Assembly: GCF_023556315.2 (NCBI RefSeq)
Contig: NZ_CP116221.1
Coordinates: forward strand, 3,486,001-3,550,000
From: Psychroserpens ponticola
Lineage (GTDB): Bacteria > Bacteroidota > Bacteroidia > Flavobacteriales > Flavobacteriaceae
Length of the DNA: 64,000 nucleotides
Reading direction: 5' to 3'
The notes beneath the pieces were generated by a model. It made no database searches. It was given only the letters and a program-made list of their open reading frames with translations, and was not told the DNA's origin. The position numbers were made by a program, and so were the translations under genes. This document shows, piece after piece, positions 2,320 to 57,280 of this stretch (positions within the stretch are counted from its first letter, which is position 1; every line of letters begins with the position of its first letter).

Positions 2320-2397
2320 TCATTCCGCACTTGATGCGGAATCTCAATAAAATAACACAAATAAATAATGAGATCCTGAATCAAGTTCAGGATGACA
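2320..2397. repeat. Intergenic palindromic repeat (two-hairpin element)
   Basis: Two small perfect hairpins lie between the OmpA-family gene and the aldo-keto reductase gene: ATTCCGCA/TGCGGAAT (2322-2329 with 2335-2342) and ATCCTGAA/TTCAGGAT (2373-2380 with 2386-2393). The two hairpins are also roughly reverse complements of each other (19 of 25 bases, from CAT to TCTC). Positions that differ between the arms are compensated inside each hairpin, as expected for a structured element. The wording (CATTCCGCA..., GGATGACA) matches a class of short repeats common in flavobacterial genomes; the genome-wide count cannot be checked here. Confidence 0.7.
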
Positions 2398-8691: not shown

Positions 8692-8757
8692 CGTCAACCT
8701 TGAGTGCAGTCGAGAGGTTCTTAAAAACAATAGGTTTCGACTGCGCTCAACCAGACA
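8692..8757. repeat. Palindromic repeat inside the gldE-gldD spacer
   Basis: TTGAGTGCAGTCGAGA (8700-8715) pairs with TTTCGACTGCGCTCAA (8735-8750), 14 of 16 bases, around a 19-base A/T-rich loop. The arm wording (GCAGTCGAGAGGT) is shared with the elements found inside bioF and the ketoacyl synthase gene. Here it lies between two genes that should be cotranscribed, so it would form a hairpin in the gld mRNA. Confidence 0.85.
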
Positions 8758-52022: not shown

Positions 52023-53180
52023 ATGCTTCCTAAAAAACTCAAAAACAAATTAGAAATACGACTGCAAGAAAATGCTTTTAGGCAATTAGGAAAATCAAAT
52101 CATTTGATCGATTTTTCTTCAAACGACTATTTGGGATTTTCTAAATCTGCAACTATTTTCAATACTACTAATGAGTTGCTAAAAACTCAAAACAGTGAAC
52201 AAAATGGAGCAACAGGTTCTCGTTTACTCTCAGGAAATCATAAATTATATCCATTTGTAGAAGAACACATAAGTACTTTTCATAATTCGGAAACTGCATT
52301 AATTTTTAATTCAGGCTATGATGCCAACTTAGGATTTTTTTCATGTGTACCGCAACGTAATGACATTGTTTTATACGATGAATATTGTCATGCTTCAATT
52401 CGTGATGGCATAACAATGAGTAAAGCAAAATCGTTTAAGTTTAAGCATAACGATTTACAAGATTTAGAATGTCACCTCGAGCGCAGTCGAGAGGTCTCAG
52501 AATCTCATCAAGATATTTACATTATTACAGAATCTGTATTCTCAATGGATGGAGACTCACCTGATTTAGTCACACTTTCCCAAATAAGTAAAAAACACAA
52601 TGCAAACCTCATCATCGATGAAGCTCATGCCATTGGTGTCTTTGGAAAAAATGGAAACGGTTTAATAAGTCAACTTAAACTTGAAGATGCTGTTTTTGCA
52701 AGAACCATCACTTTCGGAAAAGCCTTAGGTGCTCATGGTGCAGCTATTTTATGCAATCAAGATCTTAAAGAATATCTTATCAATTTTTCAAGACCATTTA
52801 TTTATACCACTGCGCTTCCTCCTCATAGTTTAGCAACTGTAAAAGCTTCATATGACGAACTTAATATTCAGAACGCTAAAGAAGTTTCACAAATAAGTGT
52901 ACTAAAAGATAATATTAGTTTCTTTAAATCAGAGTTACAACGACTTAATCTACAAGAGTTTTTCATCAAAAGCGATTCTGCAATTCATAGTTGTGTCATT
53001 TCAGGAAATGAAAATGTTAAACGTATTGCTCAAGAGATTCAAAAACATGGTTTTGATATAAAAGCTATCCTATCTCCTACGGTTTCAAAAGGAAAAGAAC
53101 GCTTACGATTTTGTTTACACAGTTACAATTCTTCAGAAGAAATCACAAAAGTCTTACAGTTACTTGCTATTTTTGTGTAA
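52023..53180 (+). CDS. bioF: 8-amino-7-oxononanoate synthase (BioF) with an in-frame repeat insertion
   Basis: A 385-residue PLP enzyme condensing pimeloyl-thioester and alanine in biotin synthesis. Family blocks: NDYLGFSKS, GATGSRLLSGNH, LIFNSGYDANLGFFS, the PLP-binding TESVFSMDGD and IIDEAHAIGVFG, and the active-site Lys in TFGKALGAHGAA. Odd: codons 150-159 (52470-52499) encode CHLERSREVS and are a 30-base palindromic repeat of the kind found between genes in this window. They fall in a surface-exposed stretch between helix and strand, where family members vary in length, so the enzyme is probably still active. DUF2007, bioD and bioA follow. Confidence 0.94.
   Translation: MLPKKLKNKLEIRLQENAFRQLGKSNHLIDFSSNDYLGFSKSATIFNTTNELLKTQNSEQNGATGSRLLSGNHKLYPFVEEHISTFHNSETALIFNSGYDANLGFFSCVPQRNDIVLYDEYCHASIRDGITMSKAKSFKFKHNDLQDLECHLERSREVSESHQDIYIITESVFSMDGDSPDLVTLSQISKKHNANLIIDEAHAIGVFGKNGNGLISQLKLEDAVFARTITFGKALGAHGAAILCNQDLKEYLINFSRPFIYTTALPPHSLATVKASYDELNIQNAKEVSQISVLKDNISFFKSELQRLNLQEFFIKSDSAIHSCVISGNENVKRIAQEIQKHGFDIKAILSPTVSKGKERLRFCLHSYNSSEEITKVLQLLAIFV
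52470..52499. repeat. 30-base palindromic repeat inserted in frame inside bioF
   Basis: Starts TGTCACCTCGAGCGCAGT and ends CGAGAGGTCTCA. It is exactly 10 codons (C-H-L-E-R-S-R-E-V-S) in the bioF frame and differs at only 2 of 30 positions from the element in the ketoacyl synthase gene at 56693-56722. It corresponds to one arm of the two-arm element seen between gldE and gldD. Confidence 0.88.
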
Positions 53181-55537: not shown

Positions 55538-55969
55538 TTAAATGCCTTCTAAATTTTTGCCTATCAAATTAATTTCTTCTTGAGATGCTTTTATTAATAC
55601 GTAAAGTTTTTCATAGATCCATTCATCATTTTCTTTTGTTGCTAAAACAATAATAGTTGCTTGTCCGTTTTCACCTTTAATAGGAATTTTTATATCCGCT
55701 TCTCCTCTATTGTTTTTCAAAGAAATTTCTCCTTGAAACATGCCATTGGTTATAATTGGTGCTCCCAAAGCATTTTGAACTCTAATATCATTTTGAGCCA
55801 AGTCAAATGAATATTCATAAGGTGTCGAATTTTTAACAACATTAGTTACTCCATAAAATACAGCTCCTATTCCTAATACAAATAATACAATTACTGTTAA
55901 ACAACCTCCAACTGGTAAAACCCAAAGCCAGTTTCTTCCAAACCAACTTTTTTGACGCACTTCTTCCAT
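55538..55969 (-). CDS. Coa1-like (cytochrome oxidase assembly factor 1 family) membrane protein
   Basis: A 143-residue protein with one membrane segment (about 15-42, WLWVLPVGGCLTVIVLFVLGIGAVFYG) and a soluble C-terminal domain. The wording (YEYSFDLAQNDIRVQNALGAPI, GEISLKNNRGEADIKIPIKGENGQATI) matches the bacterial relatives of Coa1/Tim21, which in mitochondria help assemble cytochrome oxidase. Its role in bacteria is unproven. No respiratory gene is adjacent. It is transcribed opposite to its neighbours, bioA and the ketoacyl synthase gene. Confidence 0.8.
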   Translation of the reverse strand: MEEVRQKSWFGRNWLWVLPVGGCLTVIVLFVLGIGAVFYGVTNVVKNSTPYEYSFDLAQNDIRVQNALGAPIITNGMFQGEISLKNNRGEADIKIPIKGENGQATIIVLATKENDEWIYEKLYVLIKASQEEINLIGKNLEGI

Positions 55970-56059
55970 AATACTAATGATTTAAATGATAAGTATCTAC
56001 TTTTTGCAAATTGTTACTTAATCTGTTTTAATTTTATGTTCAAAAACTTTTCAATATCC

Positions 56060-56067
56060 TATTTTTG
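56060..56067 (+). promoter_or_regulatory. Putative -7 box of the ketoacyl synthase gene
   Basis: TATTTTTG followed by CAT, a full match to TAnnTTTG, with a TTTATG-like stretch about 20 bases upstream. It lies 20 bases before the TTG start at 56087 and downstream of the ATGs at 55952 and 56036, so it supports the TTG start. Confidence 0.45.
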
Positions 56068-56086
56068 CATAAAACATCTACTGCTT

Positions 56087-57280
56087 TTGCAACAACCCAT
56101 TTCAATAACAGCAATTTCATCTATTTCTCCTTTAGGAAAAACATCTGAAGATATCTGGAACAATTATAAAAACAATCAGCATTGTTTTACAATAAATAAA
56201 GGGCATTGGGTTGCCAAAATATCTTCAGAATTAAAAACCGAAATTAATAATTTAAAAGGATCTAATCCAAAATACAAAACATTAGACGATTCAGTTCTAT
56301 ATGCAATTTACGCATCAAGACAAGCCATTAATAATGCAAATTGGGATGCTTCAGATAACTTCGGAATTAATATAGGATCATCAAGAGGAGCAACAACACT
56401 TTTTGAACATTACCATAAAGCATTTCTTCAAAATCATTTATCCGAAACTTTAGCATCTCCAACCACTACTCTAGGCAATATTTCATCATGGGTTGCGCAT
56501 GATTTACAAACCAAAGGGCCAGAAATCTCACATTCTATTACTTGTTCAACAGCATTACATGCCATGTTAAATGGAATAGCATGGATTAACTCTGGAATGT
56601 GTACTAAATTTTTAGTTGGTGGAAGTGAAGCTCCTTTAACACCATTCACTATTGCACAAATGCAAGCATTGAAAATTTATGCGAAATCAAATTGTCACCT
56701 CGAAAGCAGTCGAGAGGTCTCAAAACATCTCGACTCCGTTCGACCAAACTATTACCCAAATCAAGCTCTAAACAACAACAAAACCGAAAACACAATGATT
56801 CTTGGAGAAGGTGCTGCAATGGCATGTTTAGAATCTGGAGAACAATCAAATGCATTGGCAAAAATTATAGGATTGGGCTATGCTACTGAAATCCTTGAAC
56901 ACAATGCGTCCTTATCAACAAATGCAGTTTGTTTTCAACGTTCTATGGCTATGGCTTTAGATCAATTAAATCCTGATGACATAGATGTTATTGTCACACA
57001 TACACCAGGAACCATAAAAGGGGATCAAGCTGAAATAAATGCGATAAATACGGTTTTTTGTAACAAAACGCCATCATTAACTACTAATAAATGGAAGATA
57101 GGTCACAGCCTTGGTGCTTCCGGACTTTTAAATATTGAAATGGCAATTTTAATGTTGCAAAAACAAGAATTCATTTCAATACCTTACCTAAAAGTTAAAA
57201 CACCTAAACGCATCAAAAATATTCTAGTAAATGCAGTTGGTTTTGGTGGAAATGCAGTATCTATTTTACTTTCAAAATAA
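56087..57280 (+). CDS. Beta-ketoacyl synthase (KAS I/II type) in the biotin locus, with in-frame repeat
   Basis: A 397-residue condensing enzyme of the KAS I/II fold. Catalytic Cys in SITCSTALHAMLNG, first His in THTPGTIKGDQAE, second His in KIGHSLGASGLL, and the C-terminal NAVGFGGNAVS. I start at a TTG (56087), giving (M)QQPISITAISSISPLG, because the open frame further up overlaps the opposite Coa1 gene and the promoter box; an ATG at 56036 is the alternative. Codons at 56693-56746 (CHLESSREVS then KHLDSVRP) are an inserted palindromic repeat in a variable loop. Its position between bioA and bioB suggests a role in making the pimeloyl precursor, but that is inference. Confidence 0.88.
   Translation: MQQPISITAISSISPLGKTSEDIWNNYKNNQHCFTINKGHWVAKISSELKTEINNLKGSNPKYKTLDDSVLYAIYASRQAINNANWDASDNFGINIGSSRGATTLFEHYHKAFLQNHLSETLASPTTTLGNISSWVAHDLQTKGPEISHSITCSTALHAMLNGIAWINSGMCTKFLVGGSEAPLTPFTIAQMQALKIYAKSNCHLESSREVSKHLDSVRPNYYPNQALNNNKTENTMILGEGAAMACLESGEQSNALAKIIGLGYATEILEHNASLSTNAVCFQRSMAMALDQLNPDDIDVIVTHTPGTIKGDQAEINAINTVFCNKTPSLTTNKWKIGHSLGASGLLNIEMAILMLQKQEFISIPYLKVKTPKRIKNILVNAVGFGGNAVSILLSK
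56693..56746. repeat. Two-arm palindromic repeat inserted in frame inside the ketoacyl synthase gene
   Basis: Arms TCGAAAGCAGTCGAGA (56700-56715) and TCTCGACTCCGTTCGA (56728-56743) pair at 14 of 16 bases around a short loop. The first 30 bases are nearly the same as the element in bioF and are read in the same frame (CHLESSREVS). The second arm adds KHLDSVRP. No stop is introduced. Confidence 0.88.

Follow-up and report, generated by a model that had tools for sequence, protein, structure and literature searches.

The bioF gene of the marine bacterium Psychroserpens ponticola raises the question of how a short palindromic DNA repeat came to lie within the reading frame of a core enzyme. The gene lies within the 64,000-nucleotide stretch analysed here (the window), and the identity of its product is backed by Pfam and by a fold that matches solved AONS enzymes. 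The original prediction held that 30 bases of this gene are a ten-codon insertion, equivalent to the peptide-encoding palindromic elements of Rickettsia. These bases do read as ten codons of the intact frame between conserved BioF blocks, as was claimed:

52023..53180, forward strand: bioF, 8-amino-7-oxononanoate synthase, 385 aa, open, conserved blocks intact
52446..52520, forward strand: REP hotspot loop of BioF, codons ~142-166, between HND and the IYII-TESVFSMDGD block
52470..52499, forward strand: F1 arm in bioF, TGTCACCTCGAGCGCAGTCGAGAGGTCTCA, codons 150-159, CHLERSREVS

We conclude that the 30 bases very probably belong to a REP-like hairpin family, termed F1, and reside in a permissive loop whose occupant has been replaced repeatedly in Flavobacteriaceae.

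The repetitive nature of the segment was established by searching the whole genome, which is one contig of 4.03 Mb. With no more than 3 mismatches allowed, the 30-mer in lightly degenerate form matched at 22 places, and the stem-degenerate form GTCAnnTCGAGCGNAGTCGAGAnnTCT gave 69 arms, with no matches for the reversed-pattern control in either case. In the AT-rich bioF gene, the arm is identical over 27 bases to several other genomic copies. In the window, the 12-mer TGTCACCTCGAG with one mismatch allowed has three matches compared to 0.02 expected, one of which (positions 15-26) occurs without the remainder of the element. The family is also present in 18 of 22 other congeners searched and is repeated in 8 of 9 genomes tested from other Flavobacteriaceae outside the genus. 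Two relatives of the bioF copy had been proposed in the window. The one inside another gene was recovered with 28 of 30 positions matching, and the intergenic one proved to be part of a head-to-head pair with more diverged sequences (67% in fixed register):

8692..8722, forward strand: left arm of the intergenic head-to-head F1 pair, tag CGTC
8730..8757, reverse strand: right arm of the same pair
55952..57280, forward strand: beta-ketoacyl synthase ORF (Pfam) with an F1 pair, 17 residues longer than the empty form in the sister species
56693..56722, forward strand: F1 arm in the ketoacyl-synthase gene, CHLESSREVS, tag TGTC
56726..56749, reverse strand: second, inverted arm of the ketoacyl-synthase head-to-head pair, KHLDSVRPN

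Structurally, the family is supported as a stem of AnnTC and GAnnT, followed by a bulge of 2 nt in the 3′ strand and then by a GA/TC segment that closes a 6-nt loop. In the bioF arm, these elements are ACCTC/GAGGT and GA/TC with the bulge, the loop GCGCAG, and a TGTC tag. The variable dinucleotide and its partner occur as CC/GG (24), GG/CC (20), CT/AG (5) and GT/AC (4), with rarer combinations of CA/TG (3), CG/CG (3) and TG/CA (2). Both variable positions are paired in 51 of 57 distinct arms, whereas shuffling yields a mean of 12.1 and a maximum of 21. A second count based on 40 distinct arms found 90.7% of cells paired versus 75.2% after shuffling, and a covariation score of 0.401 versus 0.106; sliding the stem partner by any column causes the covariation to collapse. 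Folding the lone 30-mer as DNA gave a stability that is not unusual (z 0.20 to −0.67), and the support for the hairpin comes from covariation, not from folding of a single 30-mer. Among F1 neighbours within ~100 bp, seven pairs are head-to-head, four are tail-to-tail and none is head-to-tail. Numerous intergenic copies take the head-to-head form, with tags at the outer ends and with stems that often differ between arms, as when a CC/GG arm is paired with a GG/CC arm (examples are window positions 8692-8757 and loci L015, L016 and L018).

The majority of F1 arms lie outside genes. The remaining 18 of 69 are located within 13 long ORFs, all of them in the open frame, and LeuS carries two. Pfam identifies BioF, ketoacyl synthase and LeuS among the host proteins, and relatives with solved structures identify PurL, MvaD, HemW and ValS. 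Putative hosts named by sequence alone are MetH, two 2-oxoacid dehydrogenase E2 proteins, an E1 subunit and a BaiN-like flavoprotein, and there is also one membrane protein with a sub-threshold GT87 match. The HemW arm is a clean 14-residue insertion relative to 9p2u, and the PurL pair is found in a linker region before the C-terminal amidotransferase part. We therefore have a repeat family with a covarying stem that is placed in frame in core genes. Coding sequence makes up most of a bacterial genome, and the presence of only about a quarter of the arms in genes is consistent with the loss of most genic copies.

Two additional loci deserve mention. At genome positions 411859-411885 (L055), an arm joins a GIY-YIG-like frame and an aldehyde dehydrogenase in a 598-codon open frame. 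Since two unrelated reading frames meet at this arm, the ORF was not counted among the coding copies, and the arm is probably an intergenic copy without stops. At 3242610-3242725 (L066), a membrane protein gene contains three translated REP arms in two orientations within 116 bp.

An AlphaFold model of BioF built from 38 sequences (mean pLDDT 89.9, pTM 0.88) made it possible to map the segment, as the original prediction had proposed. Residues 150-159 are predicted to comprise the end of a helix (145-158) and the loop before a strand (165-170), with a pLDDT of 82 across residues 151-160 and of 91 across residues 161-170. The nearest orthologue, from the sister species, is 78% identical. Its stretch from HN to SMDGD spans 27 residues compared to 31 in the window protein, and by this sequence comparison the net length gain is about 4 residues, not 10. 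The notion of a clean ten-codon insertion was dropped for this reason, although the segment is indeed an in-frame repeat. Moreover, another repeat occupies the loop of the nearest relative, in the opposite orientation and with the sequence GAGATACTGAAACAAGTTCA...ATGAC, which is the reverse of family F2 (GTCATTCTGAACTTGTTTCAGAATCTC). No close orthologue has a clearly empty loop, and therefore replacement and insertion are indistinguishable in BioF.

Comparison with additional orthologues likewise reveals that the bioF copy is not a clean one-off event, because many loops in Flavobacteriaceae hold repeats from at least three families. Sense F2 is found in the bioF genes of congeners G005 (1 mismatch) and G001 (2 mismatches), and reversed F3 (GTCATTCAGAGCGAAGCGAAGAATCTC) is found in that of G014. 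The consensus sequences of F2 and F3 were chosen once the loops of the genus had been inspected, and were then confirmed as genomic repeats; both are multi-copy in the genus with zero control matches. One F2 arm is also present in the window:

2370..2396 (genome 3488370-3488396), reverse strand: F2 arm, GTCATCCTGAACTTGATTCAGGATCTC

We examined 96 bioF genes of flavobacteria, of which 18 belong to the genus and the others come from a scan of named genomes. Matches to F1-F3 in either orientation with a score of at least 15 are present in 28 of the 96 loops, and the reversed-version control gave none. Matches scoring at least 16 occur in bioF genes only at residues 150-180 (28) and 270-300 (4), where the second hotspot corresponds to a predicted loop between helices 267-282 and 290-307. 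In a tree of 46 genes constructed without the loop, the repeat state requires at least 20 changes, and the window bioF (G000; F1, sense) and the G020 bioF (F2, antisense) are supported sisters (97/88). Elsewhere in Flavobacteriaceae (L140, L156, L158, L168, L176, L180, L181, L189 and L200), the BioF hotspot carries other sequences that are apparently repeat-derived, including CHTEPVEV-type segments, ERPPA...AGS palindromes, and short tandem CAACTCGAAACCCG or ACCATCAACC units.

Sites in two other enzymes include alleles that are empty. The ketoacyl-synthase site is empty (7-8 residues) in seven genomes, including that of the sister species. It extends to 25 residues in the genome under study (G000), where the F1 pair adds 17 codons, and to 19 residues in G012, which carries F1. 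Lengths across G012, G005, G014, G008 and G016 range from 14 to 19 residues, and several sites of 14-15 residues hold F3 or F1. In LeuS, site A precedes EVFTTRPDT and comprises 13 residues in its empty form. Among 23 congeneric genomes, this site is empty in 12, holds REPs in seven (as F1, F3, F2/F2, F2/F3 or F2/F1), contains a whole DUF559 domain in three (G002, G012 and G021; loci L249, L248 and L252), and contains another sequence in one. A second LeuS site, B, has arms in six genomes. These comparisons directly show that placement depends on position, that alleles may be empty or filled, and that the occupants turn over in a lineage-specific manner. The DUF559 domains in LeuS are endonuclease-like, have palindromic ends and are inserted in frame, and another such whole domain resides in frame in a MetH-like gene of G005 (L243).

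Presumably, an F1 copy came to rest in the permissive BioF loop and was kept since it adds or replaces whole codons and has no stop in the frame used. The BioF loop, like single loops of LeuS and a ketoacyl synthase, probably tolerates extra residues and consequently has been colonised many times in Flavobacteriaceae, with its occupant being exchanged for other repeat families in either orientation. Copies may move as single-stranded hairpins or via template switching. Most genic copies would be lost, while those in frame within tolerant loops would persist and stay replaceable. Selection might then only filter for tolerated in-frame copies, and the peptide itself would have no function. Movement is inferred from divergent species, as we saw neither a pair of strains with and without a copy nor any target-site duplication or excision, and the mobility claimed in the original prediction accordingly rests on the distribution of copies.

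Several other explanations can be weighed against this account. The BioF loop is strongly variable in length and sequence and some orthologues are repeat-free, as would be expected of an ordinary hypervariable loop that resembles a repeat by chance or base composition. This is refuted by the exact 27-base identity to other genomic copies and by the absence of reversed-repeat matches in all 96 loops, which leaves chance with a negligible likelihood. The F1, F2 and F3 segments could instead descend from a single ancestral bioF insertion that diverged in place, an option also raised for RPE-4, -6 and -7 by Matsutani et al. (PMC3767692). Loops of 26-27 residues occur in many species, and the sequence TCAGAATCTCATCAAGA located 3′ of the F1 arm in the window is common to the F2 loop of G005, such that an older repeat may underlie the F1 arm. 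Nonetheless, we consider a single origin quite improbable because sister genes differ in both family and orientation, because each of the three families is itself a multi-copy repeat, and because empty alleles of LeuS and ketoacyl synthase are interspersed with different fillings among congeners. The claim that the element is selected for the peptide that it adds fared worse. All three sense frames of F1 are free of stops and 15 of 18 coding arms are in the sense orientation, but this bias is explained by the presence of TGA in two of the three antisense frames. The products are unrelated across frames and strands (VTSSAVExS, such as VTSSAVETS; CHLERSREVS; LSxRAQSRxx, such as LSGRAQSRPL; and antisense RNLSSALEET), and arms are mostly outside genes. 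That arms are read in several frames, and on either strand, suggests that they are tolerated and not selected for a peptide, and hence a selected peptide is highly improbable.

The means by which these repeats spread can also be considered. REPs elsewhere are linked to RAYT (Y1 transposase) genes, and DUF559 domains occupy the same LeuS site as the arms in G002, G012 and G021, and therefore either type of element might move the repeats. However, Y1 transposases (PF01797) are found in only five of 23 congeners, and the domain was not found in the REP-rich genomes G019, G012, G013, G015, G005 and G009. The sole Y1 gene of this genome (L023) is flanked by a different palindrome, not by F1. Likewise, the DUF559 genes whose ends could be inspected, which represent only part of the loci since several could not be parsed, terminate in their own GC-rich palindromes and not in F1-F3 arms. 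Both candidates were set aside as unsupported, and mobilisation by either is unlikely; a search of the Y1 class identified no transposase linked to F1, and no mobilising enzyme was found for the repeat that had been proposed to be mobile. A more elaborate alternative is that several hairpin families repeatedly enter the same few permissive sites in core enzymes, displacing each other there, through an active, transposase-poor system that is directed by site or structure (for example, by hairpin-templated strand switching), beyond what random insertion and selection would produce. We regard this as doubtful, albeit less so than the other alternatives. The preferred reading remains a REP-like copy in a tolerant loop with changing occupants.

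Separately, HemF (coproporphyrinogen oxidase) carries an in-frame fusion to a Y1 (RAYT-like) transposase domain, in proteins of 496 aa in this genome and 518 aa in G021:

L023:1477-2967 (genome 3665683-3667173): Y1-HemF fusion of this genome
L242:253-1809: Y1-HemF fusion of congener G021

A CAAGGTTTTGAAAACCTTG-type palindrome flanks the transposase part in G000, and one copy is within the fused ORF. In G021 (L238:586-3180), the reading frame of a restriction-modification-like methylase gene includes a Y1 transposase match, beside tandem TREHAPLAEEEG repeats.

Among known systems, F1 resembles the CGTC/TGTC-tagged REPs, which have stems of 8-9 bp, form head-to-head pairs, include intragenic units and lack a transposase, and for which the flavobacterium Gramella forsetii is among the positive species (Di Nocera et al. 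2013, PMC3733652). The shared features include an unpaired end tag, which is TGTC in the bioF and ketoacyl-synthase copies or CGTC at 8692, mostly head-to-head hetero-pairs, a mostly intergenic location with some intragenic copies, and no linked transposase within the Y1 class searched. However, those REPs have an 8-9 bp stem and a 4-5 nt loop, whereas in F1 a stem of 5 bp is followed by a 2-nt bulge, two more base pairs and a 6-nt loop. In addition, their first two stem pairs are A/T, while the first pair of F1 is A-T in 48 of 69 arms and the second is mostly C-G or G-C. F1 is thus best described as a bulged variant, not a member, of this group. By inspection, F2 arms do fit its 8-bp stem and 5-nt loop. 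GTAG REPs associated with RAYTs (REPtrons) are similar to F1 as short imperfect palindromes in inverted pairs, but F1 has neither the GTAG tag nor an adjacent Y1 transposase. The Wolbachia palindromic elements (WPE; via PMC3767692) are comparable by description, as palindromic repeats translated inside genes.

The proposed likeness to the Rickettsia elements is well founded, given that F1 occurs in frame in 13 genes and that RPE-4 and RPE-6 have been placed in the CGTC-tagged REP superfamily that F1 resembles (PMC3733652). Compared through published features, RPE-4, -6 and -7 are likewise short palindromic repeats in frame within several unrelated or housekeeping genes. They have ATGAC (GTCAT) in common, a motif that the present repeats also carry, and reside in solvent-exposed segments (Matsutani et al., PMC3767692). 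They also include different groups at near sites in orthologues from different species (PMC3767692), as we see here. Different REPs also occupy about the same site in recB of two Xanthomonas species (PMC3733652). The present repeats differ in being hosted by free-living Flavobacteriaceae, in their sequences and in the bulged F1 hairpin. The BioF segment, predicted to be a helix end and loop, may likewise be exposed. We found nothing specific in the open-access literature on REPs or in-frame repeats in Flavobacteria, or on DUF559 domains in LeuS.

When different palindromic elements share a gene site in Rickettsia, they might reflect a common origin or a hotspot, a choice that was left undecided (PMC3767692). 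In Flavobacteriaceae, the combination of empty alleles, orientation reversals, and supported sisters with different repeats favours hotspots, and makes repeated colonisation much clearer than in Rickettsia. This kind of element is already known, but the evidence for hotspots is unusually clear here. Because the hosts are free-living bacteria with many sequenced relatives, the movement of REPs without a transposase is directly testable, as is the rate at which short repeats supply new peptide segments to enzymes. The findings also advise caution, in that loop variation in the core proteins of Flavobacteriaceae is often repeat-derived. In this family, 'junk' DNA that is presumably mobile returns again and again to the same loops of essential enzymes and alters them.
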